Source of the DNA: a virus
Virus record (IMG/VR): IMGVR_UViG_3300008217_002745
Coordinates: 1 to 24,959 of that record
Reading direction: 5' to 3' (one strand)
Length of the DNA: 24,959 bases
Position numbers and translations under genes: made by a program. Under the pieces are notes generated by a model. The model did no database searches. It was not told where the DNA came from and was given only the letters and a program-made list of their open reading frames with translations. Shown here one piece after another: positions 1-21,218 of this stretch (positions within the stretch are counted from its first letter, which is position 1; each line of letters starts with the position of its first letter).

Positions 1-61
1 AAAGCTTAAAATAATTTGACTTTTCTTAAAGCTTAAAATAATTTGACTTTTCTTAAAGCTT
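1..61. repeat. 27-bp tandem direct repeat
   Basis: Two identical 27-bp units (1-27 and 28-54) are followed by the first 7 bases of a third. Each unit holds an AAAGCTTAAAA stretch and one copy of the ATTTGACTTTTCTT 14-mer. On the plus strand, TTGACT at 16-21 lies 17 bases before TAATTT at 39-44, which resembles a sigma70 promoter but may only reflect the repeat. The array touches the window edge, so its full length is unknown. Confidence 0.9.
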
Positions 62-64
62 GTC

Positions 65-223
65 CTAGCAGGTGATAATTATGGACGCTAAGAGGTATAG
101 GGCTCCTAAGAAAAACCACAAACTTAAAGTAAAATCTAAACCAGTTTCAACATTCTCAAAATACTTCCGCATTATGCCATTTGACTTTTCTTGAATTAAA
201 TTAGAGGTTCTTGGAACCCTCAT
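65..223 (-). CDS. Very small predicted membrane protein (35 or 52 aa)
   Basis: A minus-strand ORF runs from ATG at 223 (52 aa) or ATG at 172 (35 aa) to TAG at 65-67. The shorter form is a short polar head, about residues 1-11, followed by one strongly hydrophobic stretch, about residues 12-34, that includes LWFFLGALYLLAS, and it ends in Cys. This fits a single-pass membrane peptide. Copies of the 14-mer lie directly upstream of both possible starts. I see no clear Shine-Dalgarno site for either. The direction agrees with neighbouring genes. The same DNA also carries a plus-strand ORF (81-194), and at most one is likely to be real. No family recognised. Confidence 0.4.
   Translation of the reverse strand: MRVPRTSNLIQEKSNGIMRKYFENVETGLDFTLSLWFFLGALYLLASIIITC
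81..194 (+). CDS. Alternative plus-strand micro-ORF, 37 aa, doubtful
   Basis: ATG at 81 follows AGGTGA at 71-75 with usable spacing. A TTGACT/TAATTT pair lies upstream (16-44) and a hairpin with a T-rich tail lies downstream (237-291), so the parts of a transcription unit are present. The peptide is very basic in its first half and has no recognisable domain. Its last five residues (PFDFS) and its stop are encoded by a copy of the 14-mer. It opposes the strand of all other genes and overlaps the membrane-peptide ORF, so confidence is low. Confidence 0.2.
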   Translation: MDAKRYRAPKKNHKLKVKSKPVSTFSKYFRIMPFDFS

Positions 224-236
224 TTGACTTTTCTTG

Positions 237-291
237 AACTAGCTTAGAACAAGCTTTAAACTAAACTTTAAACTGCTCTAAGCTAGTTTTA
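237..291 (+). terminator. Long hairpin with T-rich tail
   Basis: Arms 237-251 and 274-288 (AACTAGCTTAGAACA against TGCTCTAAGCTAGTT) pair over 15 positions with one mismatch, around a 22-base AT-rich loop. On the plus strand the stem runs into TTTTATTTAGTTTA, as in an intrinsic terminator. On the minus strand no T-run follows. It could instead be a DNA cruciform or protein site in this control region. Confidence 0.5.
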
Positions 292-358
292 TTTAGTTTA
301 AAAGGGGTTGGAGGGGGGGGAGAATAAAAGAGTTTTTTAGGTCTGGGTTAAGCAAAAA

Positions 359-418
359 CTAGTTCACACTAGTTCACACGAACTCACACTAACTTACACT
401 AGTTTACACAAGCTCACC
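359..418. repeat. Six tandem 10-bp iteron-like units
   Basis: Six consecutive 10-base units follow one another without gaps: CTAGTTCACA twice, then CGAACTCACA, CTAACTTACA, CTAGTTTACA and CAAGCTCACC. The period is close to one turn of B-DNA, so every copy presents the same face of the helix. Such arrays commonly bind replication initiators, partition proteins or repressors. The role here is inferred. Confidence 0.85.
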
Positions 419-461
419 TCCCCTCAAATCGCTTATATGTATTTGACTTTTCTTGGAGTAA

Positions 462-512
462 GAATGCAGGATTAAATAAAACTCAGACTTTATTCAGTTT
501 TACTCTACATTC
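462..512 (-). terminator. Imperfect two-part hairpin after the leftmost gene
   Basis: The outer arms (462-469 and 505-512) pair as RNA on the minus strand with one G-U pair, whereas the plus-strand transcript would have a C-A mismatch. The inner arms TAAAACT (477-483) and AGTTTTA (496-502) enclose 12 bases. It lies 17 bases past the stop of the minus-strand gene ending at 530, which suits a weak terminator or 3' RNA-stabilising stem. The T-run afterwards is poor. Confidence 0.4.
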
Positions 513-529
513 CTAGGAGTATCTTAACT

Positions 530-775
530 TTAGCTCTGAACTACTTTATCCTGTTTAGAGCTATTTTTAACCCTGCTTTTCTTGACATATGGGATATACT
601 CACATACACAATACTTCTTCCATAGCTTATTGTTTCTTCTCTTCTCTTTCTCTATTACTAGCTTCTTCTTGGGGTAGTGTTTCTGGAGAGATTTCTTCCC
701 CAACTCTGCTTCTTTTTCGGTTGCGAAGTGAGCGAAGCCTCTTTTAGCTAGTTTTGACTTATTCACCTTAGTCAT
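530..775 (-). CDS. Hypothetical basic protein, 81 aa
   Basis: Small, Lys/Arg-rich protein that I do not recognise. The first 60 residues suggest strand-helix-strand order: GFAHFATEKEAE opens a helix, then KKKLVIEKEKRR and KKYCVCEY look like strands. The tail is basic and probably disordered. The layout loosely resembles the 58-aa product at 6924-7100. The start overlaps the end of the upstream gene by 8 bases, so translation is probably coupled; no good Shine-Dalgarno site precedes it. A nucleic-acid-binding role would fit the charge but is only inference. Confidence 0.65.
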   Translation of the reverse strand: MTKVNKSKLAKRGFAHFATEKEAELGKKSLQKHYPKKKLVIEKEKRRNNKLWKKYCVCEYIPYVKKSRVKNSSKQDKVVQS

Positions 776-953
776 GCACAGGGGGTGGAGTATCTTGTGT
801 TTTGTTATCTACGGGGATATGACCATGATCTCCATCGTAGGGGAACAAGTTAGATCCAGGGCCAGTTAGTCCAGGTGCGGGGACATCGGCTGCATACTGT
901 ATATCGAATAGCAACCCAAGGGGATCTTCTTCTAATGAATAGGGGTTAGGCAT
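768..953 (-). CDS. Hypothetical acidic Pro/Gly-rich protein, 61 aa
   Basis: Short acidic protein rich in Pro, Gly and Asp, with no predicted helix of note, no membrane segment and no signal peptide. The ATG follows the stop of the upstream coiled-coil gene with no gap, and its own end overlaps the next start, so the three small genes look translated as a set. Composition (many Pro and Gly, PPP near the end) suggests an extended or disordered chain. No family recognised. Only a poor, A-rich ribosome site precedes it. Confidence 0.55.
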   Translation of the reverse strand: MPNPYSLEEDPLGLLFDIQYAADVPAPGLTGPGSNLFPYDGDHGHIPVDNKTQDTPPPVHD

Positions 954-1151
954 TTATTTTTTTCTTTCTTCGTCTTCTCTTTTCTTATCTAGGAGATCAA
1001 GGAGTATTTGTAGTTCTTCTTTATCTATTAGATACTCGTCCTCCAAAATTTTAAATACATCTCTAAGCCTTTGGTTGAGGTAGACGCACAATCTCTTCTT
1101 ACTTTCCAGTTCTTGTTCAAGTGCATAGATACTCTGATGGGGGTCAAGCAC
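954..1151 (-). CDS. Hypothetical coiled-coil protein, 65 aa
   Basis: Almost entirely helical and highly charged. Residues 8 to 65 show leucine spacing typical of coiled coils (YALEQELESKKRL, then EELQILLDLLDKKRED). The likely start is GTG at 1151, preceded by GGAGAG at a spacing of about 7. A one-mismatch copy of the ATTTGACTTTTCTT motif lies about 25 bases upstream. It probably self-associates or binds a partner helix. Its neighbours are also small and helical, and a PAAR-like tail protein lies further upstream, so a structural or chaperone role is possible but unproven. Confidence 0.6.
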   Translation of the reverse strand: MLDPHQSIYALEQELESKKRLCVYLNQRLRDVFKILEDEYLIDKEELQILLDLLDKKREDEERKK

Positions 1152-1175
1152 TAGCTTTCTCTCCCCCGTTCCAGG

Positions 1176-1189
1176 ATTTGACTTTTATT
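1176..1189 (-). promoter_or_regulatory. Sixth, one-mismatch copy of the 14-mer
   Basis: ATTTGACTTTTATT differs from the five left-hand copies at one base. It lies in the 53-base gap between two minus-strand genes, about 25 bases before the GTG start at 1151. This placement supports an upstream regulatory role on the minus strand. Confidence 0.4.
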
Positions 1190-1510: not shown

Positions 1511-1897
1511 TTAACCACAGGTTACAAGGGTTGACCCTCTTTGGCCCGACTGAGCAAGCTGATCCGCTTTGGTGTTGTAAGGGGGAGGACCTGGAATTGT
1601 GGGCGACATCCCATTATTGATCGAATAACCGTCCCCTACTCGTGCGACACCCAAACCGTGGATAAAAACTGTCTGAGAAACATCTTGGGAAGATAGGGTT
1701 GGGGCATGTGCCCCCCCACAAAAAAGTCCAGTCCCATGTATCTCAGTCGAGTCTCCTGCCAAAATGACCGCTTTAGCATTTATCCATACGTTGGAAGAGG
1801 TACTAGTAAGAGCACTTTGGGTGGATGTAATGCAACTATGGTTTGTTTGAATCCGAGGTGAATCCCCTAAAACTCCAATCGCTACAGGTTGTGCCAC
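1511..1897 (-). CDS. PAAR-like tail-spike tip protein, 128 aa
   Basis: The sequence has the look of PAAR proteins, which fold as small cones that sharpen the tip of contractile-tail spikes and bind a metal through His and Cys. Two half-repeats are visible: SSNVWINAKAVILAGDSTEIHG (about 34-55) and TVFIHGLGVARVGDGYS (about 76-92), the second close to the usual NGkpvaRvGD pattern. His20, Cys22, Cys60 and His64 are possible metal ligands. The start is probably GTG at 1897 after AAGGG. T4 gp5.4 is the phage precedent. It implies a myovirus-like tail whose other genes lie outside this window. T6SS PAAR proteins share the fold, but the context is phage. Confidence 0.75.
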   Translation of the reverse strand: MAQPVAIGVLGDSPRIQTNHSCITSTQSALTSTSSNVWINAKAVILAGDSTEIHGTGLFCGGAHAPTLSSQDVSQTVFIHGLGVARVGDGYSINNGMSPTIPGPPPYNTKADQLAQSGQRGSTLVTCG

Positions 1898-3250: not shown

Positions 3251-3565
3251 TCACGTAATTTCCACTTCCTTAATATTAATTTTCTTAGCTAACTCTCTCT
3301 CAATTTTAGCGCCGTCACTATACTCCCAGCCTGGGATCATATAAATATATTGGCATTCTACCAAAAGGGCGATAGCCTTCCTCATATAATAGGACCACGA
3401 ATGAACTCCCGACGGAGGAGGCTCGATATGAAGGGGGTTAACAGGGTTGTATCCCAAATTTTTTAAACGACTCTCCGCCTCCGCGAAATCAATCTCAGCC
3501 GACGCGCTACGAGTAATTGGTCCGCTGATGTAGACTCTTATTAGAGAAGATTGTGGGTCCGTCAC
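3251..3565 (-). CDS. DUF4406 protein, 104 aa
   Basis: Matches the DUF4406 family, which shares a fold with nucleoside 2-deoxyribosyltransferases. Visible signatures are VYISGPIT near the start, a helix with FAEAESRLKNLGY, the VNPLH segment, WSYYMRKAIALLVECQYIYM and a PGWEYSDGAKIERELA region. Length is normal for the family. Phage members probably act on nucleotides or nucleosides, but no activity is established that I can name. The start is a GTG overlapping the upstream stop (GTGA), so translation is coupled to the sigma-like gene. Confidence 0.85.
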   Translation of the reverse strand: MTDPQSSLIRVYISGPITRSASAEIDFAEAESRLKNLGYNPVNPLHIEPPPSGVHSWSYYMRKAIALLVECQYIYMIPGWEYSDGAKIERELAKKINIKEVEIT

Positions 3566-4125
3566 AGTTCATTCCCAATTAAAACAGATAAAGAGTGAAC
3601 AGCCTTATTAGTTTCAAACCAACTAATCCCCAAAGAGTCGGATAGACGTTTAATATTTAACTTACCCCCTGCTTTAATGAGAGTAGGATCCTGCACTACC
3701 AAGTGAACGATATCGCGCTGCATCGGAGTAAAACGGTAGTGGAGATCCTCGAAAAGAATTGCCGAATCATCGTTAGCTCTGGGGTCGGCAATGCTGAGAA
3801 CTTCTTCTTTGTGGGTGGGGACCGTCCCCCTCAAAATGGGAGCCTTCTTAGTAATCTTTGCCCCCTTGTTATTCTTCTTAGTCCACATACAAGTTTTAAT
3901 ATACTTGTCAAACCCTACAGAACCCCAAAAATCATCGAATTTACCATTCGCCCCCTCATTTTGTTTTTCGAAACCCTTAACAGCCTCAACCGCTGACATC
4001 TTAATATCTTGAAGATTGTCCTCAAAGCTAGCTATAGCACTGTCGCCGCTGATTTGATGGCTGATCTTGTGCATAAGCATTCCATACTTCTTCTCAATCT
4101 TCTCCCACTGTTCTGCTTCTAACAT
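3562..4125 (-). CDS. Sigma-70-like transcription factor (divergent), 187 aa
   Basis: The middle (about 60-95) resembles sigma region 2: a helix-rich stretch with FWGSVGFDKYIKTCMW followed by KKNNKGAKITKK. The C-terminal third (FTPMQRDIVHLVVQD, then LNIKRLSDSLGISWFETNKAV) reads as region 4 with a helix-turn-helix. The full length is close to small phage sigma factors such as T4 gp55. Such proteins direct host RNA polymerase to phage promoters. The recurring 14-mer and the TATAAT boxes are candidate targets, but that link is inference. The start ATG overlaps the upstream gene by 7 bases and has only a weak ribosome site. Confidence 0.5.
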   Translation of the reverse strand: MLEAEQWEKIEKKYGMLMHKISHQISGDSAIASFEDNLQDIKMSAVEAVKGFEKQNEGANGKFDDFWGSVGFDKYIKTCMWTKKNNKGAKITKKAPILRGTVPTHKEEVLSIADPRANDDSAILFEDLHYRFTPMQRDIVHLVVQDPTLIKAGGKLNIKRLSDSLGISWFETNKAVHSLSVLIGNEL

Positions 4126-7206: not shown

Positions 7207-8547
7207 TTACTCTGCGCTACTTGTACTGAGATCTCCATCCCTAAGATTCGTAATGGTAAACTCATTGTTTACAATCTTCGGGGTGTAAAGATCTCCTTCT
7301 TTTTGTGGTTCTTTTTTATCCAAGATTATCTGAGCTACAGGAACAGCAATCTCGTTCTTAATAAAACGTTTAATATTTCTCGCACCGTACTCTTCCGAGT
7401 ACCCATTTTTGGCTACGTAATTAAGCAACGGCCTAGTCCTCTTCAAGGGAATGTGTTTAAGATTAAGCGTGGCAATCTTCCTCACATCAGACGGAGTAAG
7501 AGTATTGAAAAAGATAAAGTTGTCGATCCTATTCATGAACTCAGTTGGAAATTTCTTTCGTACCGATTCCGTGATCTCTTCCCGACAACCTGACACGGAA
7601 ATCTTTTCATTGGCAAATCCTAACCTATATCCTCTTCCTATATCGGATAACCCTTGATTAGAGGTAAAGATAAAGATAGACTCTGAAAAATCAATCACCT
7701 TGCCCATATTGTCAGTACACGTACCATCGTCAAGCATAGAGAGCAGAAAATCATAAAACTTAGGATGAGCTTTTTCAATTTCATCAAACAGGATCACCCA
7801 CCTGTTAGATTTCTCAGCTTTTTCAGCAATCAGACTCTTCTCCGTATGCCCCACGTATCCTGGGGGTGAGCCAATCAACTTGTTATACTCGTGTGGCAGG
7901 GCGTACTCGGCACAGTTAAGCTTCCAAAAATTACCACTATACCTAGATCCTAGCAACTTAGCAGCCTCTGTTTTCCCGACCCCTGTAGGCCCAACGAAAA
8001 AGAAAGAGGCGGTCTTATATAAGCCTGTAGCTATCAGTTTCATACTATCCACTAAGCTCTTTACCGCTTCCTTCTGCCCTACCAGATTCTTATCAAAGTA
8101 GCTGACCAGCGAAGTAATATCTCGCTTCGAACTCAGGGACTTCAGAGTATTTCGAGAAGGATTAGCTTGAGCAGCACCTATGTCTTCAAACATGAGGCGC
8201 ATAGAGTCACCTACACCTTCAATAAACTCCCCATTGTTGATATCTGCACACACAAAATTCAGATCAAAAATGGGATAAGCTTCGATGATAGACCGATACA
8301 CGGCCTTAACAATCGTCAACTTGTCTTCATCAGGCGGTAGATTGCTAAAAAACTCCTCCGATTTATGTAAGAAAGACTTGAGAACATACACCATGTAACT
8401 CTCAATGGTAATCGGTTCTTCTAGGGTGCTAATTTTATGCTTTAACTTAAAATAGGCTTTTTGCTCTTCCTCTAATCCTAGCTTTCTAATCAGAAGAACT
8501 AAATTAATAGGATCACAAACTACTTTATAGTAAGATTTTCTTTTCAT
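7207..8547 (-). CDS. Clp/Hsp100-type AAA+ ATPase with a single AAA module, 446 aa
   Basis: ATP-driven unfoldase related to the second AAA+ module of ClpA, ClpB and ClpC. Visible motifs: Walker A GPTGVGKT (186-193), pore loop GYVG (230-233), Walker B VILFDE (251-256), sensor 1 TSN (295-297), arginine finger Arg340 in FMNRID, and sensor 2 GAR (388-390) in the small C-terminal domain. The first 150 residues match no Clp N-domain that I know. LGF (309-311) sits where ClpA has IGL, ClpX IGF and ClpC VGF, the loop that docks on ClpP. No protease gene is in the window. The start overlaps the upstream stop (ATGA), and a strong terminator follows. Confidence 0.92.
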   Translation of the reverse strand: MKRKSYYKVVCDPINLVLLIRKLGLEEEQKAYFKLKHKISTLEEPITIESYMVYVLKSFLHKSEEFFSNLPPDEDKLTIVKAVYRSIIEAYPIFDLNFVCADINNGEFIEGVGDSMRLMFEDIGAAQANPSRNTLKSLSSKRDITSLVSYFDKNLVGQKEAVKSLVDSMKLIATGLYKTASFFFVGPTGVGKTEAAKLLGSRYSGNFWKLNCAEYALPHEYNKLIGSPPGYVGHTEKSLIAEKAEKSNRWVILFDEIEKAHPKFYDFLLSMLDDGTCTDNMGKVIDFSESIFIFTSNQGLSDIGRGYRLGFANEKISVSGCREEITESVRKKFPTEFMNRIDNFIFFNTLTPSDVRKIATLNLKHIPLKRTRPLLNYVAKNGYSEEYGARNIKRFIKNEIAVPVAQIILDKKEPQKEGDLYTPKIVNNEFTITNLRDGDLSTSSAE

Positions 8548-10739: not shown

Positions 10740-11525
10740 TTAGGAGGTGGCTAATTCGTTGATATCACTCAACTTAGAGAGCGGCTTCATAAAACACATC
10801 TCACGTTGGCACCTAGTTTTCTCCTCCATACCCGCACCGTCGTCTCTCTGCCATTCAGTGAGGGGATGATAATTGTGGATCATTAGCTCTTCCTCAATAT
10901 AAGCTAAATTGTCCCACCCTATCATTTCAATAATGGGAAGAAAAATTGCTACGTCCGCAGCACTAGAAAACAGAGTAGCAGATGAATCAAAAAAATAGTA
11001 CGGAGGGATTCTATCAAAGAGAAACTTCTTAAAAGTACGGATCGCCCCATACCGCCACCCTGGATTGTGTATCTGCTGTCTAGGAGCAATATTTGTAACC
11101 TTTGGGCCACACACCGAATGCTTTGTTACTTCAGGGTGAAATTTCTCACTTCCCGCAATTCTATAGTTGCCGTAAGTGGCAAGATAGCCCTTCTCATATT
11201 CTTGCTTAATACGAGACAACACCTCCGCGTGAGCAAAGGCATCATCACCATCTAAATGAACTATGACATCATCAAGGTGCGCCTCCGACAACTCCGTTCC
11301 CAGTATGTGGCTATGCAAAGTACCCAACCGAGTGGACTTGTTAACTACGTAACATCGGGAATCATACGCACATTCTTCTTGAATTATATCAAACGTCTTG
11401 TCAGTAGAGGCATCATTAACCAAGACATGCCTATACTCACAGTCTTTTTGCATCTTGACAGAATCAATACACTCTTTAACAAATTTTTCTGCGTTGTAAG
11501 TAGGAGAAATAATACAAAATTTCAT
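10740..11525 (-). CDS. Family 2 glycosyltransferase, 261 aa
   Basis: GT-A fold enzyme that transfers a sugar from a nucleotide donor. The N-terminus shows CIISPTYNAEKFVKECIDSV, followed by VLVNDASTDKTFDII, and a metal-binding acidic motif VHLDGDDAF (about 89-97). After the catalytic half come aromatic acceptor-side segments (NPGWRYGAIRTFKKFLFD). Donor and acceptor cannot be read from sequence. It is the last gene of the long sugar operon and overlaps recombinase stop by 4 bases (ATGA). No membrane segment, so it is likely cytoplasmic. Confidence 0.9.
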   Translation of the reverse strand: MKFCIISPTYNAEKFVKECIDSVKMQKDCEYRHVLVNDASTDKTFDIIQEECAYDSRCYVVNKSTRLGTLHSHILGTELSEAHLDDVIVHLDGDDAFAHAEVLSRIKQEYEKGYLATYGNYRIAGSEKFHPEVTKHSVCGPKVTNIAPRQQIHNPGWRYGAIRTFKKFLFDRIPPYYFFDSSATLFSSAADVAIFLPIIEMIGWDNLAYIEEELMIHNYHPLTEWQRDDGAGMEEKTRCQREMCFMKPLSKLSDINELATS

Positions 11526-12511
11526 GACAACCCCAGCAGAAGTCTAAGAGGCTCAAACTCTGGCTCACCAGAATCAGAAAGCAACGCTTCAAAATCCTTA
11601 GCCTGGAATTTCCTACCAGTAGAAGAAACGGTATACCAGGACCCACTTCTTTGAAGATGTCCCTCCGCTTCAAATTGTTTCAGTAAACCTGTGTAGGGAT
11701 TTAACCCCTCATCGTAAAGAAGCTCAAAATTACACTCCCTGAAGGGGATAGAAACTTTATTTTTGGTATTCCTAACTCTGCCGCTAATACCCACAACCAG
11801 CTTATGCTCATCTTTTAACAAATCACTAGTTTTATTAGAAATACATTTAAGATTAACTCCCAGATAATACTCTAATGATTTACCCCCCGCCGCCATGGTT
11901 TCAGGATTTCCAAACAGCATCCCCACTTTGTTGCGAATCTGGTTTATAACAACCAAAGCTACCTTGTGCTTTCTCATGAGGGGATTAATTTTACGAAGAC
12001 ACGCCCCCGTAGACTTCGCTCGAATAGCTCCCTGCATATTATTCCCCTCATAATTCTCAGCCTCATACTCCGCTTTTGAAGGAGAAACGGCGATGCTATC
12101 ATACACCACTACAATAGGGGTTTCCTGATCCGTCTCTCTAATTGCGGTGATTGTATCCTCAATAACTTGAAAACAATCTTCCAATGTGTCGGGAGCCGCA
12201 TAAATCAACTTGGTAGGATCAATTCCTAAATGAGCGGCAAACTCAGGATTGTAAGCATTTTCACTATCCACCATCATGGAATAATAGCCTTGAGCCTGCG
12301 CTTCCTTGAGAATGTGTGTACCAAAGACAGTCTTAGCGGTGGAAGCCTCACCGTGAAATTGGGTAATCATTCCGATAGGGACCCCATCTCCATACTTACC
12401 TGAAATAATCTTATTAAGAGCGTAGCTTCCCGTCCCAACAAACCCTAGGTCAGGGACTTGCTCTGATAACAACCCCGCGTTTTTCAATCGTTTTAAGACT
12501 GATTTATCCAT
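11522..12511 (-). CDS. RecA/UvsX-family recombinase, 329 aa
   Basis: Strand-exchange ATPase of the RecA superfamily. Visible parts: Walker A GEASTAKT (54-61), the catalytic Glu region VDSENAYNPEFAAHLG (81-96), Walker B IVVVYDS (133-139), and VVINQIRNKVGM (187-198) leading into the ssDNA-binding loop 2 region, then AAGGKSLEYY. The fold core is complete; the C-terminal 60 residues form a small separate domain. Walker A has Ala where RecA has Gly before the Lys. It would act in phage recombination and repair. AAGG lies just before ATG 12511. Its place inside a sugar operon is unusual. Confidence 0.9.
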   Translation of the reverse strand: MDKSVLKRLKNAGLLSEQVPDLGFVGTGSYALNKIISGKYGDGVPIGMITQFHGEASTAKTVFGTHILKEAQAQGYYSMMVDSENAYNPEFAAHLGIDPTKLIYAAPDTLEDCFQVIEDTITAIRETDQETPIVVVYDSIAVSPSKAEYEAENYEGNNMQGAIRAKSTGACLRKINPLMRKHKVALVVINQIRNKVGMLFGNPETMAAGGKSLEYYLGVNLKCISNKTSDLLKDEHKLVVGISGRVRNTKNKVSIPFRECNFELLYDEGLNPYTGLLKQFEAEGHLQRSGSWYTVSSTGRKFQAKDFEALLSDSGEPEFEPLRLLLGLS

Positions 12512-12514
12512 GCC

Positions 12515-13666
12515 TTATAATAGATCCTCGGACCCTTTTTGTTGGAAAAATAGGAGATTTTCTTGTATACGATCATGGTTCGGAGGGGGAAGGGTTCCAC
12601 TTTCTACCAACTCTTTCCCCAAAGCTAATGCCTTTTCATACTCACCCGTATAATAATAAGCAATAGATAAATCATCTTTAACTTTCCAATCATATACGTC
12701 GCGCTCTATGAACAACGAATCAGTCGCGGGATAGGGGATACCCAAAGCTCTCTCTCCATAAACCAAGGAAATGTGATAAAGCTCCTTCTTTCTGTAATAA
12801 CTTTGGATATCATGCAGGGGTTCCGCTCTAGTAGGTCTACACTGGTAGGCTATAAGAAGGTCACTGACCACCTCCTCCATTGAACACCCCAACTCTATTT
12901 TATACCTTCCTTTACGAAGAAGGAGCATATACTTCTCTTCATCCCATGTAGTAACCTCTAACCCTTTATTGACCGCTGCCAGGGCTCGGTCGTAGTCTTT
13001 TGCATCCGCATACGACTGCGCCAAATAGAACCAAGAACGTGAGTTTGTAGGGTCCTCTATTAAATCAGCTTCAAACAAAAGGGCATCTCTCTTGTACTTA
13101 TTACCCCTCTTACTCCGAGCCCCGTCGCCTCTTGGAATGTTACACATCGTAGGAAGGTAACGGCTAGTCTTATTCTCATCGGACCTACAATACTCATGAC
13201 AGACTCCCACCCACTCCCAAGAAAGTGTACCTTTAAAAAAGGTAGCTCGTTGATAATCCAGACCAGCATAACGGGTGAGTATAAAAGCCATGTCTTCCTC
13301 CATATAGGGCAACGAAGGCAGATCTTCCTCCCAAGCGACTCTCCCATCATTTAAGGGGGCTATTACCTCGTCCGCATCCAAGGTCATTAAATAATCAGCT
13401 TTTCCCTTAGCAAGCTTGAAGCATTCCGTTCTATTATACCCAAAGTTTACCCAAGGTCTTTCAAAAACATAACCCTCTAATTTATTGTCCTTAAAGTAGT
13501 TAAGAATTATTTCTTGCGTTCCATCGGATGATCCAGTATCACAAATATAATAAACATCAACCAAAGAACTAACACTAGAGAAAGCCCGAAGAATGACATC
13601 AGATTCATCCTTTACAATCATACATAGGGCTACAGTCTGTTTAGTGTCCTGTAGAGCCGAGGCCAC
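12515..13666 (-). CDS. Glycosyltransferase fused to TPR repeats, 383 aa
   Basis: The N-terminal half is a GT2-type GT-A domain: VALCMIVKDESDVILRAFSS, CDTGSSDGTQEII and the acidic motif LMTLDADEVIAP (about 93-104). The C-terminal half holds helical TPR-like repeats (SWFYLAQSYADAKDYDRALA; DLSIAYYYTGEYEKALALG). Such GT-TPR proteins are common in surface-glycan clusters. GTG 13666 is preferred: GAGGGG lies 5 bases upstream and the overlap with dUTPase is 26 bases, not 68 as from ATG 13708. Acceptor unknown; TPRs may bind a protein. Confidence 0.85.
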   Translation of the reverse strand: MASALQDTKQTVALCMIVKDESDVILRAFSSVSSLVDVYYICDTGSSDGTQEIILNYFKDNKLEGYVFERPWVNFGYNRTECFKLAKGKADYLMTLDADEVIAPLNDGRVAWEEDLPSLPYMEEDMAFILTRYAGLDYQRATFFKGTLSWEWVGVCHEYCRSDENKTSRYLPTMCNIPRGDGARSKRGNKYKRDALLFEADLIEDPTNSRSWFYLAQSYADAKDYDRALAAVNKGLEVTTWDEEKYMLLLRKGRYKIELGCSMEEVVSDLLIAYQCRPTRAEPLHDIQSYYRKKELYHISLVYGERALGIPYPATDSLFIERDVYDWKVKDDLSIAYYYTGEYEKALALGKELVESGTLPPPNHDRIQENLLFFQQKGSEDLL

Positions 13667-14069
13667 CCTTACCCCTCTCAGTCTCAGAAAGCTCCGTAAC
13701 AACATCAAAGTTTAGCTGATGTACCAAAGAAATCTCAAATTGAGCGATACGATCTCCTGCCTCAACACACGCAACATCCCTATTCCTATTATTATGAAGA
13801 ATTACTTTAATCTCTCCTCTATAATCCGAATCAATCTTGCCTGGAGCATTGGCTACCACCACCCCTCTAGAGGCCAACCCCGATCTAGAATAAATATCCC
13901 CCTTCCAATAACGAGGGATCTCCATTGCTAACCCAGTCCCTACCACCACAGTCTCCCCAGGGGGGATGTAAGCTGTTTCGACCGCATATAAATCATATGC
14001 CGCCGCAAACGGAGTACCCTTATGGGGAACTATAGCCTCCGGAACCAATTTTTTAATTTTTATTTTCAT
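13641..14069 (-). CDS. dut: dUTP diphosphatase, 142 aa
   Basis: Trimeric-type dUTPase, hydrolysing dUTP to dUMP and pyrophosphate and so keeping uracil out of phage DNA. All five motifs are visible: AAAYDLYA (23-30), SRSGLA (61-66), GKIDSDYRGEIKVILHN (77-93) with the catalytic Asp and Tyr, GDRIAQFEI, and the C-terminal RGKGGLGSTG. Length is typical. The ATG overlaps the upstream sugar-kinase stop by 4 bases, so it is co-translated within the sugar operon. Confidence 0.97.
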   Translation of the reverse strand: MKIKIKKLVPEAIVPHKGTPFAAAYDLYAVETAYIPPGETVVVGTGLAMEIPRYWKGDIYSRSGLASRGVVVANAPGKIDSDYRGEIKVILHNNRNRDVACVEAGDRIAQFEISLVHQLNFDVVTELSETERGKGGLGSTGH

Positions 14070-14812
14070 TGGGGAACCCCTACGCCTCTCTGTTGCACCA
14101 CTTTAGTGGCAGCGTCGTTTGCTTGGCTTATAGCATAATCAATATCGTGAGTTTGTAGGTATGCAGCTACAAGGAAAGCCAAGAAGGTATCCCCGGCACC
14201 CGCAACATCTTTAACTGGAACCCGTTCCCCTTTATATTGTTTACCGTTATGTTCACACCCCTGGGGCCCTAAGGTAGTAATTAGTTTCTCCTTTAATAGT
14301 TCCTTCATATCACTAGAAACATTAACCTTAGTTTCATGTGTATTAAGCTTAATGTAAGTTATGTTTTGTGCCCACTCCCCTAGCCTCTTTTTGGTATCTA
14401 AAAAGGTAAGAGAGTGGTTAAGAGAGATATAAGATATGTCCTCCTCAGATAAACACCCTTTATCATAATCCGAAATTATTATCGCATCATAGTGGTCGTA
14501 TTCTATATTCTCAACCACAAATCTAGAAAAAATATTATCATTTTCATCTACCCGAATAAACATATGGTTAGTTCTGTCGTCTACATATCTAATTTTCCTT
14601 GCCTTATCCCATCCAGGAGACGATAAAATTTCTACCTCCAGACTAGGATCCGCCTTTAATAAATTTTTATTAACGTTACCCGCCATCCCCATACTGCGAG
14701 TTTCGCTTCGCGGTATAAATACTGGAATAGGAGCCTCGGGGGACAAGCGTTCACAGTCCCCATAACGGAATATATCCCAACACGATTCGCCAATGATAAG
14801 AACTCTAGTCAT
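14066..14812 (-). CDS. PfkB-family kinase like the HldE heptose kinase domain, 248 aa
   Basis: Ribokinase-fold kinase. GDCERLSPEAPIPVF (about 18-32) is the signature of D-glycero-D-manno-heptose 7-phosphate kinases (HldE N-domain/HldA). The PfkB signature DVAGAGDTFLAFLVAAY (202-218) holds catalytic Asp208. ATP-site segment TTLGPQGCEHNG and the final NDAATKVVQQRGVGVP also fit. It is shorter than HldA (about 310 aa) and lacks the cytidylyltransferase half of HldE. No heptose isomerase or phosphatase is in the window, so it may use a host intermediate or another sugar phosphate. Confidence 0.85.
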   Translation of the reverse strand: MTRVLIIGESCWDIFRYGDCERLSPEAPIPVFIPRSETRSMGMAGNVNKNLLKADPSLEVEILSSPGWDKARKIRYVDDRTNHMFIRVDENDNIFSRFVVENIEYDHYDAIIISDYDKGCLSEEDISYISLNHSLTFLDTKKRLGEWAQNITYIKLNTHETKVNVSSDMKELLKEKLITTLGPQGCEHNGKQYKGERVPVKDVAGAGDTFLAFLVAAYLQTHDIDYAISQANDAATKVVQQRGVGVPQ

Positions 14813-14814
14813 AA

Positions 14815-15768
14815 TTAACTGTTACTATACACCTTTAATGAGGGCTCAAGCATCCTGTATGCCGCTAGTAATTCCTTTATACCATCTTCTAATGTATACT
14901 GTGGTTCCCACCCCAAACTTTCCAGTTTAGCATTAGACACCAAGTAATCTCTTTTATCCGGGTCAGAAGCAAGTGTATCAGATTTTATAGAGAGAGGAAC
15001 AAACTCCGAAATCATCTGTGCTAACTCCATTTTAGTAAGATTAGCATTACTTAAGCCCACATTGTAAACTTCCCCAGCCATAACTTTATAATCTTGTATA
15101 GCTTTAATAAAGACATTCGCTACATCTCGAACATGAATATAATTGCGTCGGAAATATTCTTCAAACAACACAATGTACTTATCCGAAAATGCCTTATAAG
15201 TAAAATCATTAACGAGCAAGTCTAATCTCATACGAGGTGATACACCAAAAACGGTCGCCAATCTGAGAGCAACGCCTCCCTTTTTCAAAATTAATTTTTC
15301 CGAGTCACACTTAGTCTGTCCATACAAACTGATAGGATTCAGAGGAGTTTCCTCGGTGCAATATTCATCTTTAGCTCCGATTCCATAGCCACTGTTAGTA
15401 TTAGGATAAATAATCTTAGTTGAATACTTTTTGTATTTTAAAATGGTTTCTATTTGAGCAACATTAGTCTTAGCTGCTAAATCTGGTTGAGCATCACAAG
15501 CAGGGAACCCCACTATAGCGGCCAAGGGAATGATAACATCGGCTGCTTCAACATACCGACGCAGTAACGACGAATCATTTACATCTCCCCTCACAAACTC
15601 AAACTTCTCATTTATAAAATGATTTAAAAAGGGGGTCTGATTGTGAAGTAAGTTATCTAAAACGATGAGTTTATCAAACTTTAATGAACTGTTAGTTAGC
15701 AGTTTATCCACTAAAACAGAACCGATATACCCCGCACCCCCCGTAATTAGAATAGTCCCCTCACTCAT
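14815..15768 (-). CDS. NAD-dependent sugar epimerase/dehydratase (extended SDR), 317 aa
   Basis: Rossmann enzyme of the extended SDR family. NAD site GGAGYIGS near residue 10; PLAAIVG; active site Ser region NTNSGYG; catalytic pair YGQTK (Tyr-x3-Lys); ALRLATVFGVS; and RNYIHVRDVANVF, typical of nucleotide-sugar epimerases. It acts on a nucleotide sugar in the cytoplasm; the exact sugar cannot be assigned. ATG 15768 is preferred over 15774 because GGGGA lies at good spacing. It overlaps the upstream gene by 8 bases. Confidence 0.88.
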   Translation of the reverse strand: MSEGTILITGGAGYIGSVLVDKLLTNSSLKFDKLIVLDNLLHNQTPFLNHFINEKFEFVRGDVNDSSLLRRYVEAADVIIPLAAIVGFPACDAQPDLAAKTNVAQIETILKYKKYSTKIIYPNTNSGYGIGAKDEYCTEETPLNPISLYGQTKCDSEKLILKKGGVALRLATVFGVSPRMRLDLLVNDFTYKAFSDKYIVLFEEYFRRNYIHVRDVANVFIKAIQDYKVMAGEVYNVGLSNANLTKMELAQMISEFVPLSIKSDTLASDPDKRDYLVSNAKLESLGWEPQYTLEDGIKELLAAYRMLEPSLKVYSNS

Positions 15769-16189
15769 TATCATTTCCCCAACTGACTTCCCAATCTTTA
15801 AAATCTACGCCTAAACAATCAATCTTGTAGTCCTGACGACCCCCAACCTGCTCCTGAATTTTGTTTTTAGCTGTATTACGAATACCATTCAAACCATGAG
15901 TTAACTCTAAATTGTTACCTTCCTTTATACCCTTACGGTAATTGGCTTCATTATGCCAAATATGAAGATTCATCTGGGATAATACAACAATAGCACGAAT
16001 AGTGTCTGCGGTTATTTGGATATCTCCTCCCGAATCTGTTCCGCCCCGCATTGCCATATCAATATCATGTAGAATATCCTCAATCTCCACAGCGTATTCC
16101 TCCTTATGATCAGGGATAAATACTTCCTTAAGCTGGACTATAGATAGTCTGTCAATTAACTCCGACAAAGTAGGTAAATAGCGTCTCAT
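15761..16189 (-). CDS. Helical protein of the sugar operon, possibly DUF4254-like, 142 aa
   Basis: Begins LPTLSELIDRLSIVQLKEVF and continues with helices; about residues 65-120 (VVLSQMNLHIWHNEANYRKG, later RNTAKNKIQEQVGGRQDYKID) resemble DUF4254, a small helical family found beside LPS glycosyltransferase genes. The WHNE and R-N positions are the best points of match. No enzymatic motif is seen. It lies between the DegT-fold enzyme and an epimerase, overlapping both, so a role in the same glycan pathway is likely. Family call is tentative. Confidence 0.5.
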   Translation of the reverse strand: MRRYLPTLSELIDRLSIVQLKEVFIPDHKEEYAVEIEDILHDIDMAMRGGTDSGGDIQITADTIRAIVVLSQMNLHIWHNEANYRKGIKEGNNLELTHGLNGIRNTAKNKIQEQVGGRQDYKIDCLGVDFKDWEVSWGNDNE

Positions 16190-17355
16190 GATGTAGCAGT
16201 CTCCGTGGTGATCTCGGAAAGATCAGAAGAAGCTAAAGTTTCAAAATATTCTAAAAGAGTATCCTCAATATAAGTAACATCCGACGTTGATAAATAATGA
16301 TGAACCCCAAGATGAATGCCAAACTCGCCAATGTACTCCGCATTCGGGAAATCTCCAAGAGCGTGCCCCATAAACTCAAAAGCTTTATGCTGAGTAGGGA
16401 TGCACCCAAAATTTCTCTTCCACTGAATGCCCTTCTCATCTAGGAGATTGCACAAATCCTTAATCGACCTACCGTGTTTTAAAGTGATAGAAAACCCATG
16501 AGGACATACAGTGACGCCGTTCGGTTCTTGGGAAAACCAAGCATAAGGTTTATACTGGTCCAACGATAACATTAATCTCCTAAGGAATTTTTTACGTTTA
16601 CTAAAGGTATGCCAAAAATAAGCAACCCCCTCCAAGCCGATAGATGCCTCCAGATCGTTCATTTTAGAATTATACCCTACCCTAAGATGATCAAAGTAGA
16701 GAGACCCCTCTTCCCTACCATGATTACGGGTACACCCTACGGACTTAGCCACAACTTCATTGTTGGTGGAAACCATTCCGCCCTCGCCACAGTTAATGAG
16801 GTGCGCCGTATAAAAACTAAAAGCTGCCCCATCGCTCAGATTGCCGACATATTCCCCATTATACTTAGCCCCGTGTGCCTCGCAAGCATCCTCAAAGACC
16901 AACAAATCATATCGCGTAGCAATATCCTTAATAACCTCCATATCACAAGGAAGGCCCATAGTATGAACAACTAAAATAGCCCTAGTCTTTTTTGTAATAG
17001 CTGCTTCAATTTTAGAAGGATCAATATTTAAGGTTTCTTTTTCAACATCTACAAACACAGGAGTGAGCCCCGCAGCTAAAACAGCATTAGAGGTAGCAAT
17101 GAAGCTGAGAGCAGGAACGATTATTTCATCACCTCTCTGGGCTCCAAAAGCATAAACTGAGGAAATTAAATTTATAACAGCATCCGTACCAGAACTAACA
17201 GCCTTATTATGTTGATAGTTAAAAAGATCCCCCCAGTTAGACTCAAACTTCTTCACCAAAGGTCCAGCAGTTACCCAATTAGTCTTGAGACAACTCTCTA
17301 CGTAGGTTTTAGCCGCAGGGCCTAAACGTAACTCTCCAAAATTAATTTTGAACAT
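16186..17355 (-). CDS. DegT/DnrJ-fold PLP enzyme of the ColD/RfbH dehydratase type, 389 aa
   Basis: Sugar aminotransferase fold: SSGTDAVINL (54-63) for phosphate binding, EDACEAHGA (155-163) with Asp156 for the pyridine nitrogen, and FSFYTAHLINCGEGG (179-193). In ordinary members the Lys that bonds PLP lies five residues before GEGG; here it is His185. That swap marks the 3-dehydratases ColD (His188) and RfbH/AscC, which remove the C3 hydroxyl of 4-keto-6-deoxy sugars. Length equals ColD (388 aa as I recall). There is no RfbH-type Fe-S Cys set evident. ATG 17355 has GGAG upstream; a longer frame to 17574 overlaps the previous gene and is rejected. Confidence 0.85.
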   Translation of the reverse strand: MFKINFGELRLGPAAKTYVESCLKTNWVTAGPLVKKFESNWGDLFNYQHNKAVSSGTDAVINLISSVYAFGAQRGDEIIVPALSFIATSNAVLAAGLTPVFVDVEKETLNIDPSKIEAAITKKTRAILVVHTMGLPCDMEVIKDIATRYDLLVFEDACEAHGAKYNGEYVGNLSDGAAFSFYTAHLINCGEGGMVSTNNEVVAKSVGCTRNHGREEGSLYFDHLRVGYNSKMNDLEASIGLEGVAYFWHTFSKRKKFLRRLMLSLDQYKPYAWFSQEPNGVTVCPHGFSITLKHGRSIKDLCNLLDEKGIQWKRNFGCIPTQHKAFEFMGHALGDFPNAEYIGEFGIHLGVHHYLSTSDVTYIEDTLLEYFETLASSDLSEITTETATS

Positions 17356-18118
17356 GTTCTTCTCCAAATCTCTTTTCCCAAACCTTCGGAGAGACTTTCC
17401 AGTTTTCAAAATCAATCTTAATCCTGCTAGATTGATCTTGAGAATACATGGAGTTCCACAACGGTAGATCATTTTCTCTATAAGCTCTCCCCACAGGAGC
17501 CCACTCTGCCGAGTGAATATCCCACGTACAACGCAATACCTCCGAAGGGGACAAACTAAAATAACCTCCATCATTTTGAAAACGGAAAGCTAAATCATGA
17601 TTACACATATTTAGATGCTCATATCTACAGTCCCAACCCCCCAACTCTTTAAAATAAGCGAGGTCATACATAGCAACAGGGGCAATTTGGTAATCCTTAG
17701 GAACGCCTGGGAGACGCAGATCCGCATGAGTCCAAGCTGTCCAGTAGGAGTTATCAGGGAAGTTGTTCCCCTCACTATAACGCATAACTACTCCACATTT
17801 AGGAGTGCTAGCTTCTTCTAAAACTGTCACCGCCTCCGATAGAGAATTTCCTATAAAAACCCCATCATCCGAGGCCCAGGTTATATATCTGCCTGTGGCA
17901 TGTGACACCCCAATTTGGGCCGCTCTAGCAGGAGCCCCATAGTCTTGATAAAAAGAAAAATTATCAACTTCCTTTAGTTCAGCAGGAATCTCTCCCGGAC
18001 CAACTATTATCATCTCAAAAGAGTACTCTCCAATAGCCGCAACCGCAGAATCATAAAGAATCTTCCAGTTATGATGACGTATTCCTGGTAAAACTATAGA
18101 TAAATCAAATTTCGACAC
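17342..18118 (-). CDS. GT-A-type glycosyltransferase-like protein (paralog 1), 258 aa
   Basis: Starts at GTG 18118, with AGGAG 8 bases upstream. FDLSIVLPGIRHHNW opens the fold; YITWASDDGVFIG (about 75-87) is the likely acidic donor/metal motif; YFKELGGWDCRYEHLN and a DLAFRFQNDGG segment follow, as in GT2 enzymes (GGWD is common there). The C-terminus ends with WEKRFG. It is clearly related to the next gene upstream and to the partial gene at the right edge. Donor and acceptor unknown. It overlaps neighbours by 14 bases on each side. Confidence 0.8.
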   Translation of the reverse strand: MSKFDLSIVLPGIRHHNWKILYDSAVAAIGEYSFEMIIVGPGEIPAELKEVDNFSFYQDYGAPARAAQIGVSHATGRYITWASDDGVFIGNSLSEAVTVLEEASTPKCGVVMRYSEGNNFPDNSYWTAWTHADLRLPGVPKDYQIAPVAMYDLAYFKELGGWDCRYEHLNMCNHDLAFRFQNDGGYFSLSPSEVLRCTWDIHSAEWAPVGRAYRENDLPLWNSMYSQDQSSRIKIDFENWKVSPKVWEKRFGEEHVQN

Positions 18119-18899
18119 GGCCAAATCTCCTAGTCCATATAGCAGGGGACTGTCGCCAGTTATCCCTATCAATTATAGAAGATATAGAATCAGAACTTTC
18201 ATAAGTTTTTCTAAATAAAGGTTCATCATGCAAAGTTTGAGCATCGTGAATAGGAGCATGGTCCCCAGACCTCCCTGGCATATGCCCACAGTCTAAGAGA
18301 GGAACCCTGGACATAATCGCCTGAGCCCCATCAGCTTGGGCTCTCATAGCTAGGTCAGTATGGCTCATAAAGGTGCCTTCATATTTACAATCCCACCCTC
18401 CTAACTTTTCAAAGTAGGATCTCTCCATAATGGCTACATTAAAAAGCCACCAATCAATATTTGCACTGCTTACGTTGGTACAGGGGGAGCCACAAATTTT
18501 AAAATAATCATCATGTTGCAAAGGCTTCGCAGAGGCTCCTTCGCCTTCAAAATATTTAGACACTACGATTGTTCTCGCATCTACGTAGCACTCCTCAAAA
18601 AAGTCTATATTCTTATCCAGGGCCCCTGGGAGAAAAACCGCATCATCGGCAGTCCAGGTTATAAGGGAACCTTCACAGAAGGTAGAGGCTATGCAGGACG
18701 CTCTAACGGGGGATCCCCAATCTTTCACATGCTTGACGTTGTCTAATCCTTCCAGGTCAGCAGGAAGAGAATAAGGGCTTCCTATAACTAACTCAAATGA
18801 CCTGGAAGTGGAGGCCAAAATGGACTCATACACTTGAAGCCATCTATCTTTCCTAATACCAGGAAGAACTATAGAGATGTGCGGACCAGAAGATGTCAT
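18105..18899 (-). CDS. GT-A-type glycosyltransferase-like protein (paralog 2), 264 aa
   Basis: Same plan as its downstream neighbour: ISIVLPGIRKDRWLQVYESI, LITWTADDAVFLPG as the acidic motif, YFEKLGGWDCKYEGTFMSHTD, and a C-terminal WTRRFG. Unlike paralog 1 it has GRSGDHAPIHDAQTLHDEPL near the C-terminus, which is nearly repeated in the partial gene at 24718-24959. No membrane segment. Role in glycan assembly is inferred from fold and operon. ATG 18899 overlaps the upstream stop by 4 bases. Confidence 0.82.
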   Translation of the reverse strand: MTSSGPHISIVLPGIRKDRWLQVYESILASTSRSFELVIGSPYSLPADLEGLDNVKHVKDWGSPVRASCIASTFCEGSLITWTADDAVFLPGALDKNIDFFEECYVDARTIVVSKYFEGEGASAKPLQHDDYFKICGSPCTNVSSANIDWWLFNVAIMERSYFEKLGGWDCKYEGTFMSHTDLAMRAQADGAQAIMSRVPLLDCGHMPGRSGDHAPIHDAQTLHDEPLFRKTYESSDSISSIIDRDNWRQSPAIWTRRFGRVEI

Positions 18900-19876
18900 A
18901 CCATATACTCTATAACTTCGTCTATGGACTCTTCCAATGAGATTCTAGCCTTAAACCCCAACAATTTGTAGGCTTTAGATACATCAGGAACTCTATAAGC
19001 TACATCATATTTATAAGGAGTGTCACACACATAAGAAAAGGGTTTCTCAGGGTTAAGCCGATCCCACACCATGTTAGCCAGTTCCAAAACTGTGGTGGGG
19101 GTGGATACTGAGATGTTAAAGTCCTCGTTAATGGCGGCATTCGATTCCAACGCGATACGAATCCCTCTAGCTATATCCTTTCCGTTGGTGTAGCACCTCA
19201 CCTGTTTCCCACTCCCTAAAATATGAAGAGGCTCTTGACCCTTCATCACTTTATTAACTAAATCAGGAAGAACATGACTCATCATCAATTCAATGTTTCC
19301 GCTAGTAATTGCTTCTTCCTTAATAGATTTTTCTTCCCCCACACCTACACAATTAAAAGGACGAATAATAGTGTAAGGAAGTTTATACTGTTCCCACGCT
19401 CCTTTTGCAAAATATTCCGTAGATAACTTTTGAAAACCATAAGTACTTAGAGGAGGGGGTATGTGAGTTGCCAACTCCTCCCTAGTGGGAAAAGTTCTCG
19501 TGCTTTCATAGACCATAGAACTAGAGAGAACCACTACTCGTCGCATTTTATCATGAACAGCCTGATCAAAAGTATTAGCAATAATACGTTCGTTATGAGA
19601 AATAAGATCATAAGCATACTTATGGAAATAACTAATCCCCCCAATCATGGCAGCCCCCGCTACCATATAATCTGTTTTAGCAACTTTGGGAAAACTCTGA
19701 GAAAGATCATGCTCTACCAAGGTAAAAGATGGGTGGCTATCGTGGGGTCGTGAAACTTTGCCATACTTAGAGAAGTTATCTATCCCAAGTACCTCCCATC
19801 CATGGTTAAGAAGCTCCAAACACAGGTAACTTCCTATAAATCCTTGAGAGCCAGTAACTGTAATCGTTTTACTCAT
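18896..19876 (-). CDS. NAD-dependent nucleotide-sugar epimerase (extended SDR), 326 aa
   Basis: TGSQGFIGSYL (about 8-18) is the NAD-binding loop, AGAAMIGGISYF follows, SSSMVYE carries the active-site Ser, and YGFQK the Tyr/Lys pair. IIRPFNCVG and YTNGKDIARGI are typical of UDP-glucose 4-epimerase and GDP-sugar epimerase relatives. The substrate cannot be fixed; a hexose epimerisation feeding the adjoining glycosyltransferases is likely. Start and stop both overlap neighbours by 4 bases. Confidence 0.88.
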   Translation of the reverse strand: MSKTITVTGSQGFIGSYLCLELLNHGWEVLGIDNFSKYGKVSRPHDSHPSFTLVEHDLSQSFPKVAKTDYMVAGAAMIGGISYFHKYAYDLISHNERIIANTFDQAVHDKMRRVVVLSSSMVYESTRTFPTREELATHIPPPLSTYGFQKLSTEYFAKGAWEQYKLPYTIIRPFNCVGVGEEKSIKEEAITSGNIELMMSHVLPDLVNKVMKGQEPLHILGSGKQVRCYTNGKDIARGIRIALESNAAINEDFNISVSTPTTVLELANMVWDRLNPEKPFSYVCDTPYKYDVAYRVPDVSKAYKLLGFKARISLEESIDEVIEYMV

Positions 19877-20670
19877 AATCTCATACCGTCAAATACAGTA
19901 GTTTTAAGTTTAGCATTTTCCTTGTCTAAAGTTTCAAACAAGGTTAAATCTAGATCCAACTTCTTACAAAGTTGTACTATAGCCTTAACATCTTTGGGTA
20001 AGCACGTTCCTCCGTACCCTCGAAAGTTATCATTTACATCCAGATAGATGTCAGCTATGCCTCCTCGCTTAATGTATGCATTTTTTACAGATTTGTAATC
20101 AGCATGGAGAGCTTCACAAATTTGATACATGCCATTAGCAAAAATAATTCTAAGAGCATTAAAAACATTAGAGTAATATTTAATTAGTTCGGCCTCCGTG
20201 TACCCTAAAATTTCAACTTCCTTCGGGTATGTTCCATGACACTCAATCACTGCATCAATAGACGCTTGATCGTCTCCTCCCACTACCAAGAGATCGTGAT
20301 TTTCCACAAAATCAGTAATAGCACACCTCTCTCGTAAAAATTCAGGGACAAAGCAAAGTTTTATATTGGGATACTTAGATTTAAACTTTAATGTAGTCCC
20401 TGGCTCTACCGTAGATTTGATAGCCACGACGCCCTCAAATTCTAAAGTGTTTAATTCCCAAATACACTCTTCAACAATAGTAGTATCACATGATCCATCA
20501 CTATAGTTAGGAGGAGTAGGAACACAAATATAGATGATATCACTATCTGTAAGATCCGATAAAGCCGACTTTAATTTGATATCGTGAGCCTTAACTATAT
20601 GCCCTAACTTCTCAAAACCAAACTTACACGCGCTCCCTACGACTCCTAATCCAACAATACCTATCTTCAT
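19873..20670 (-). CDS. NDP-sugar 6-dehydrogenase lacking the C-terminal domain, 265 aa
   Basis: Related to UDP-glucose/GDP-mannose dehydrogenases, which oxidise C6 twice to give a uronic acid. NAD site GIVGLGVVGSA (4-14), STVEPGTT (86-93), PEFLRE (109-114), AELIKYYSNVFNALRIIF with the conserved Lys, and FRGYGGTCLPKDVKA with catalytic Cys223. Family members are about 390-450 aa; this one ends after the central helix region, so the C-terminal UDP-binding domain is missing. The catalytic core looks complete. Natural short phage forms may exist; alternatively activity could be altered. ATGA overlaps on both sides. Confidence 0.88.
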   Translation of the reverse strand: MKIGIVGLGVVGSACKFGFEKLGHIVKAHDIKLKSALSDLTDSDIIYICVPTPPNYSDGSCDTTIVEECIWELNTLEFEGVVAIKSTVEPGTTLKFKSKYPNIKLCFVPEFLRERCAITDFVENHDLLVVGGDDQASIDAVIECHGTYPKEVEILGYTEAELIKYYSNVFNALRIIFANGMYQICEALHADYKSVKNAYIKRGGIADIYLDVNDNFRGYGGTCLPKDVKAIVQLCKKLDLDLTLFETLDKENAKLKTTVFDGMRL

Positions 20671-21218
20671 TTTGCAGCCTCCACATTTAAACTCATTAAT
20701 CTTCCTGTAGCTTTGTCCATATGAGGAAGATAAGCCTGACTGTAATCATCTATATACGAATGCTCAGTTTCCTGCCAACAATAGCTGTTGACTTTTTTAA
20801 ATCCCACTTCGTGCAAATCTTTTTTGAGGGCGGGGTAATCCCACGTATGGTAATGAAAATCAAAATCATATTTTTGACCTCCATATAACAAAGTATGCAA
20901 TACTTCTAAATCCCCTGTTTTATTATAATGGGCACAAACCGCTCTAAAATCAGGAACAGCTAGCCTCAATACCCCCCCATCTGCCAAACAGTTGTACCAA
21001 CTTTGAAGCACCTCTTTATAGGTGGTAGGTTGAAACGTAAAAGCCGTCTTAGGAAAATGCTCCAAGACATGACAAGCATAAATTAGTTCTACATCTGCAT
21101 AATACTCGTCGATACGAGTAATGTCCAGAACCTTGTCAGGGCATACTTCTTTACGAGCATCTATATTAACAAACCCATGTATTTTTCTATCCCCACACCC
21201 CAAATTTAACTTAAGCAT
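20667..21218 (-). CDS. SAM-dependent methyltransferase, class I, 183 aa
   Basis: LKLNLGCGDRKIHGFVNID (2-20) is motif I of class I methyltransferases, with an acidic residue for the SAM ribose. YACHVLEHFP (48-57) and CLADGGVLRLAVPDF (77-91) complete the core, as in Methyltransf_11. A C-terminal region with Tyr and His is probably the acceptor side. It may methylate a sugar, given its place between the dehydrogenase and GDP-mannose dehydratase, but a nucleotide or lipid target is possible. Confidence 0.88.
   Translation of the reverse strand: MLKLNLGCGDRKIHGFVNIDARKEVCPDKVLDITRIDEYYADVELIYACHVLEHFPKTAFTFQPTTYKEVLQSWYNCLADGGVLRLAVPDFRAVCAHYNKTGDLEVLHTLLYGGQKYDFDFHYHTWDYPALKKDLHEVGFKKVNSYCWQETEHSYIDDYSQAYLPHMDKATGRLMSLNVEAAK

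Follow-up and report, generated by a model that had tools for sequence, protein, structure and literature searches.

A polar 14-bp repeat at the end of a replication operon and upstream of recA in uncultured contractile-tailed phages: candidate sites for a putative phage regulator

Introduction

What function might be served by a short DNA word that recurs, in a single direction, at the end of a phage operon? The question is raised by IMG/VR record IMGVR_UViG_3300008217_002745, which was analysed as the complete record of 24,959 bp (here termed the window) and derives from an uncultured contractile-tailed phage. Near its left end a 14-mer, ATTTGACTTTTCTT in its plus-strand form, is present in several copies. 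Little is known about the timing and delimiting of gene blocks in uncultured large phages, and we have followed this repeat through related contigs. The explanation that we favour, with a probability of about 0.4, is that the repeats are polar binding sites of a putative phage-made, sequence-specific DNA-binding regulator. Its support comes from the core AAAAGTCAA(AT), which is found family-wide, is sense-oriented and mostly intergenic, occurs both in an array and at a recA site, and is avoided elsewhere on both strands.

Results

A first-pass annotation of the window had reported five exact copies of ATTTGACTTTTCTT (14-27, 41-54, 179-192, 222-235 and 441-454) and one copy with a single mismatch (1176-1189), and all of these were confirmed. 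Every copy of ATTTGACTTTTCTT in the window is located on the plus strand, with none on the minus strand. No other 14-mer in the window has five copies; in 300 dinucleotide-preserving shuffles the word itself was absent and any other 14-mer reached two copies at most. The first two copies, at 14 and 41, are not independent, because both are parts of a 27-bp tandem repeat, perfect in sequence, at the record's extreme end. Since every substantial gene of this region is on the minus strand, in a leftward operon with the array at its 3′ end, the natural reading of the motif is AAGAAAAGTCAAAT, with the core AAAAGTCAA, and the orientation chosen in the annotation has to be reversed. The annotation also placed most copies shortly upstream of an open reading frame (ORF). 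This is correct for the near copy, AATAAAAGTCAAAT in gene sense, which is separated by 33 nt from the downstream GTG start of ORF 954-1151 (minus strand), and for the fourth copy, 43 nt from the third, whose 3′ end provides the ATG of a 52-residue ORF (65-223, minus strand). The remaining copies are in noncoding DNA at the operon end.

Related contigs were recovered with two window proteins, a Clp-like protein (7207-8547) and a sigma-like protein (3562-4125); a scan with the PAAR protein of the window yielded no relatives. When IMG/VR was scanned for two nearby copies of AAAAGTCAAAT, only 30 contigs were returned, about half of them belonging to the phage family and some containing unrelated repeats, while a scan for exact single copies gave mostly chance matches. 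In the family contigs from the two-copy scan, the motif is co-directed with the operon and located at its end, adjoining convergent genes where the contig reaches that far. Two to eight copies occupy the corresponding position in the relatives, namely the 3′ end of the operon containing recA, clp and the gene for the sigma-like protein, and this location is kept in relatives whose sigma-like protein is just 28-66% identical to that of the window. One relative, G001 (130 kb), is essentially complete, as shown by a 574-bp overlap, 88.7% identical, between its two ends; it encodes a terminase, a portal protein, a tail sheath protein, a family-A DNA polymerase and a DnaB-like helicase.

The arrays share a common order. 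The last operon genes are followed by two or three motif copies, the element TTTGCTTRACC and a GC-rich terminator-like sequence. Next there is often another group of copies, and the series is closed by the element CCAAAGCTAC and a terminator, beyond which lie convergent genes or a transfer RNA (tRNA) gene. In the window, the fifth copy is upstream of a second conserved element, TTTTGCTTAACCC (345-357, minus strand), which in the relatives comes after the upstream motif group; an imperfect, terminator-like inverted repeat (237-288) has 15-nt arms at 237-251 and 274-288 and is T-rich on the plus side. The ORF at 65-223, which encodes 36-52 residues depending on the choice of start and contains one hydrophobic stretch, has similar short counterparts at the same place in some relatives. 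Sixteen of the 44 spacings between neighbouring copies fall within 49-53 nt, a recurrent pitch that suggests a spacing constraint. In a search requiring the AAGTCAAAT core, the information in the motif was limited to about 11 positions, AAAAGTCAAAT, and no second element was found at a fixed distance on either side. The 5′ flank is clade-specific: AAGAA in the window, L246, G001 and L243/L248/L251, ACCAAA in L235/L236/L240/L242/L261 and AAAAA in L206/L207/L135/L136. Related genomes, such as L242 and L261, differ by whole units. Several copies overlap an ATG, many directly follow stop codons, and the G+C fraction of the array is low (0.334 versus 0.415 in the window).

Several further features were noted within the array. 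On the plus strand, opposite to all neighbours, a 37-residue basic ORF (81-194; MDAKRYRAPKK...MPFDFS) is preceded by AGGTGA, and its last residues are encoded by the overlapping third motif copy. We considered whether the motif might generally encode a C-terminal peptide, FDFS* (TTTGACTTTTCTTGA/TTAA, plus strand), and rejected this possibility as the frame is appropriate only in this ORF. Between motif copies, positions 358-417 contain a degenerate 10-bp tandem repeat of six units, ACTAGNTCAC. A conserved hairpin around TTGCTTGACC was likewise discarded, a good fold being predicted in some relatives (z scores of −4.8 and −3.1) and not in others. Pairing of GTCAA in the motif with TTGAC in the second element was also rejected, since the latter varies (TTAAC, TTTAC) while the motif is unchanged. 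Rfam gave no match above threshold near the array.

Across whole records, WAAGTCAAAT occurred 71 times in the sense and twice in the antisense orientation, and control matches numbered few or none per record. Among 34 contigs, A[AT]AAGTCAA was found 111 times in sense and never in antisense; 69 of the 111 matches lie outside called ORFs, in noncoding DNA that makes up 9% of the sequence, and some of the matches inside ORFs are ordinary coding sequence. In G001 all sense-strand copies are located at 21-41.4 kb, in the replication/recombination operon, with none before the structural genes; the motif is absent from the late operon. The random genome-wide spread that the first-pass annotation had named as a refutation of its proposal is therefore contradicted by these orientation and placement counts. 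As a separate observation, an antisense copy is found between two leftward genes in L264 (3340) and, in reverse complement, in L268 (525) and L267 (9838). It lies some 16-19 nt upstream of a conserved TATATAC and is possibly the −35 element or an operator of a leftward promoter.

The core is avoided in DNA away from the conserved sites. In 871 kb of family DNA, TTGACTT was observed 12 times against 81 expected, an approximately sevenfold depletion that was weakened or lost when any of the five central bases was changed. It ranks 15th among 9,209 non-palindromic 7-mers, and the words ranked ahead of it resemble parts of degenerate or interrupted palindromes. Both orientations are depleted in the late region of G001, where the genes run mostly in one direction (observed/expected 3/20.7 for AGTCAA and 2/22.1 for TTGACT), which points to recognition of the core as double-stranded DNA. 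No depletion was seen in unrelated IMG/VR loci (204/118) or in Clp-only phages (37/44).

The second recurrent location is upstream of the recA/uvsX-like gene (11522-12511, minus strand, in the window), which is preceded by a motif copy in about 17 relatives. In 13 distinct relatives AAGTCAA is separated by 5-7 nt from a perfect TATAAT, and two further −10 sequences are near-perfect, TATCAT in L211/L209/L128 and TATTAT, at 8 nt, in L267; L149 and L154 have the motif and no clear −10. Where present, the −10 is 4-6 nt from the start codon. With just 5-8 nt between them, the motif is too near to the −10 to serve as a −35 box. The box at recA stands before a near-perfect CTATAATA without TTGACA or any clear −35, and other promoters of the family are ordinary, of the form CTTGACA-N17-TGGTATAATA. 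The 5′ flank of the recA site matches that of the array in the same genome wherever both are seen. Comparison of G001 (24671-25241) with G019 showed an exchange of the gene that precedes recA, with homology restarting at the motif. In the window a −10-like CTATTATA (12516-12523) is kept and the motif is missing; L206/L132 likewise have the −10 and lack the motif.

Strong σ70-type promoters, CTTGACA-N17-TGGTATAATAGGGGCATG, were also noted elsewhere in the family, for example at L246:2056, L246:2591, L141:15669 and L261:4827. Their −10 ends approximately 5-7 nt before the start codon, implying messenger RNAs that would be leaderless or nearly so.

Could the motif be read by the protein encoded at 3562-4125 (minus strand), as the first-pass annotation proposed? 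Profile and fold identify this protein, with moderate confidence, as a sigma factor with regions 2 and 4. The Pfam family Sigma70_r2 was detected in 7 of 15 homologues (best E value 0.0011), both the sigma2 and the sigma4 half could be aligned with sigma factors of solved structure, and the leading Foldseek matches of the predicted structure (predicted local distance difference test score 72.5) were all sigma factors, the best with an E value of 0.014. The protein thus has the appearance that was claimed for it; what was not borne out is a link to the motif, which is absent before the structural genes. Among contigs with a detected sigma gene, arrays accompany the closer homologues, and the distant contigs often end before the array's place. 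The annotation's caution that the copies are not plainly σ70 promoters was justified, as they are followed by no fixed −10, and most array copies have neither a −10 nor a start-site-like partner. Reading the plus strand as a −35 (TTGACT) was rejected because no −10 follows at 15-19 nt and the orientation would always be opposite to that of the operon. A role as a late promoter was rejected as well, the gaps of the late region holding other AT-rich, TAAATA-like words. As for a T7-like single-subunit RNA polymerase, PF00940 had no match in five relatives and none in the control either, and for six of the seven G001 ORFs of more than 700 residues no polymerase was indicated by PHROGs.

Discussion

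What these comparisons show is the conservation, position, orientation and avoidance of the motif; from them we infer that a protein binds the repeat, that its effect is polar and what kind of protein it would be. The putative regulator would dock on the motif as duplex DNA. At recA, where most relatives have the site immediately before the −10, it would control initiation; at the operon end and in the gaps between genes it would halt or limit RNA polymerase arriving from one direction, with the outcome that operon transcription would be ended, or insulated from the convergent genes. The sites would work as the operators and stoperators of mycobacteriophage L5 do, without an L5-type repressor. 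The proposal can be extended to an undescribed regulon in lytic contractile-tailed phages, in which a putative protein would read a polar 14-bp site, control initiation at recA and end or insulate the replication operon at the array, with an action strong enough for the core to have been purged from both strands elsewhere; in this complete form we regard it as somewhat unlikely.

In Cluster A mycobacteriophages (L5, Bxb1, Trixie), operators and stoperators are asymmetric sites of 13-14 bp, several per genome, which have one orientation relative to transcription and lie in promoters and short intergenic gaps (PMC9283540, PMC6550527). The present repeat is similarly asymmetric and similarly oriented (71 versus 2; 111 versus 0), occupies a promoter (recA) as well as intergenic gaps (junctions and array), and varies between related phages. 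In contrast to Cluster A, it shows a concentration of copies in an array at the end of one operon and a strong avoidance of its core elsewhere, and neither a repressor (helix-turn-helix plus Stoperator domain) by sequence search nor an integrase in five relatives was found; since the defining repressor and an integrase were not detected, we do not class the motif as a member of the L5-type operator/stoperator system.

Several observations weigh against a stoperator-like regulator. The regulator is putative and no phage gene has been assigned to it. No integrase was found in the five relatives searched, with positive controls, and the Trixie repressor found no relative in G001, G019, G020, G018 or G017 in a sequence-level search whose positive control scored 2.9e-135; a role in immunity is therefore unlikely. 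Taking Trixie as a yardstick, the stoperator core is not depleted in that stoperator phage, so avoidance is not among the known characteristics of such systems. The recA gene of the window lacks its copy, and a distant sigma-bearing clade avoids the core and has no array in the DNA seen; in the clade that lacks arrays, no other convincing repeated words were detected beside the sigma gene. In addition, avoidance could have another cause, as many palindromes are depleted and these phages thus also avoid restriction sites. Family-wide, in the 871 kb, many 6-bp palindromes are nearly absent (observed/expected 0/138 for CTCGAG, 3/216 for GAGCTC and 3/167 for CTGCAG), which suggests heavy restriction pressure that could contribute to avoidance of the core.

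Other explanations account for parts of these results. The recA site recalls T4 middle promoters, in which MotA boxes upstream of a σ70 −10 substitute for the −35 at a distance of 12 ± 1 bp, uvsX, the counterpart of recA, being a classic case (PMC2988021). A sigma-appropriation box of this type, where a phage activator on AAAAGTCAA would replace the −35 and a modified host polymerase would start from a good −10, fits the near-perfect CTATAATA lacking a TTGACA −35 in genomes whose other promoters possess one. It is nevertheless an unlikely solution: the sequence differs from the MotA box, the recA box is nearer to the −10 (5-8 nt against about 12 nt), and for most copies in the array and at junctions there is no −10 at any fixed distance. 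MotA_activ had no match in the five relatives, the control search also being without a match. Iteron-type replication origins consist of direct repeats that lie at a preferred spacing within an AT-rich gap, and an initiator could bind the array between convergent operons, the single copies then acting as its operators on genes. The one main array per genome, its direct repeats, preferred pitch and low G+C, and the companion elements TTGCTTRACC and CCAAAGCTAC are compatible with such an origin, and initiator-type avoidance would be possible. We consider this improbable, as single copies at gene junctions remain sense-oriented, the recA sites hold their 5-8 nt distance to the −10, and no initiator gene has been assigned. 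The GC skew of G001 tracks gene direction and cannot place an origin.

That the motif is a promoter element read by the sigma-like protein seems quite improbable, even though the sigma2/sigma4 fold and the association of arrays with closer sigma homologues speak for it, a weak purine preference is seen directly downstream of the motif, and avoidance of stray promoters would be expected on both strands. Several copies lie over a start codon or face only a terminator and convergent genes, and it is because the motif does not precede the late genes and has no partner element at a fixed distance that we retain this proposal as a rival only. Strict sense orientation and the many copies placed directly after stop codons or over an ATG would suit an RNA-level element, AAAAGUCAAAU in the messenger, acting in the 3′ untranslated region or as a translational operator or start-associated sequence. 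Start-associated sequences of Cluster K mycobacteriophages are reportedly short directional repeats near gene starts, confined to one phage group; the sequence here differs, and for many copies there is no downstream gene start. An RNA-level role is made very unlikely by depletion of the core on either strand, the position of the recA site upstream of a near-leaderless promoter, and the lack of a consistent fold or Rfam match. Finally, AAGTCAA could be an asymmetric sequence recognized by a type III-like host restriction system that cuts only opposed pairs of sites, the surviving sites being co-oriented. T7 and EcoP15I are a precedent for type III restriction and site orientation, and the family does avoid many restriction-type words and keeps its remaining sites in one orientation. 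Restriction leaves unexplained the longer conserved motif, the clade-specific flanks, the array at a single place and the position in the recA promoter, and we regard it as highly improbable.

Returning to the favoured explanation, polar sites of a phage-made regulator would provide a natural example of direction-dependent control of transcription beyond the mycobacteriophages, and the motif predicts a DNA-binding protein. Across a phage group this short searchable word marks the recA promoter as well as the point at which the replication operon ends, and it may be used to label operon ends in metagenomic contigs.

Additional features of the window and its relatives

To the right of recA, a long run of genes of glycosyltransferase and nucleotide-sugar type, as judged from translations, occupies positions 12515-24672, towards the right end of the window. 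Within an accessory gene block, 1511-1897 (minus strand) encodes a PAAR-motif protein (Pfam 3.4e-6, PHROG 5e-11), a type that usually forms the spike tip. In G001 the word TTCTACACTT(A) is repeated nearly only between genes (6 of 6 for CTACACTTA), and some copies lie in a leftward island at 42-47 kb. Matches of 81-112 nt to the transfer-messenger RNA model RF00023, spanning both ends of the model, were found at L242:889-1000, L261:659-770 and L236:3678-3758, those of L242 and L261 adjoining tRNAs. L242 also contains a Pistol ribozyme (10932-11017, minus strand), with a score above the Rfam gathering cut-off.
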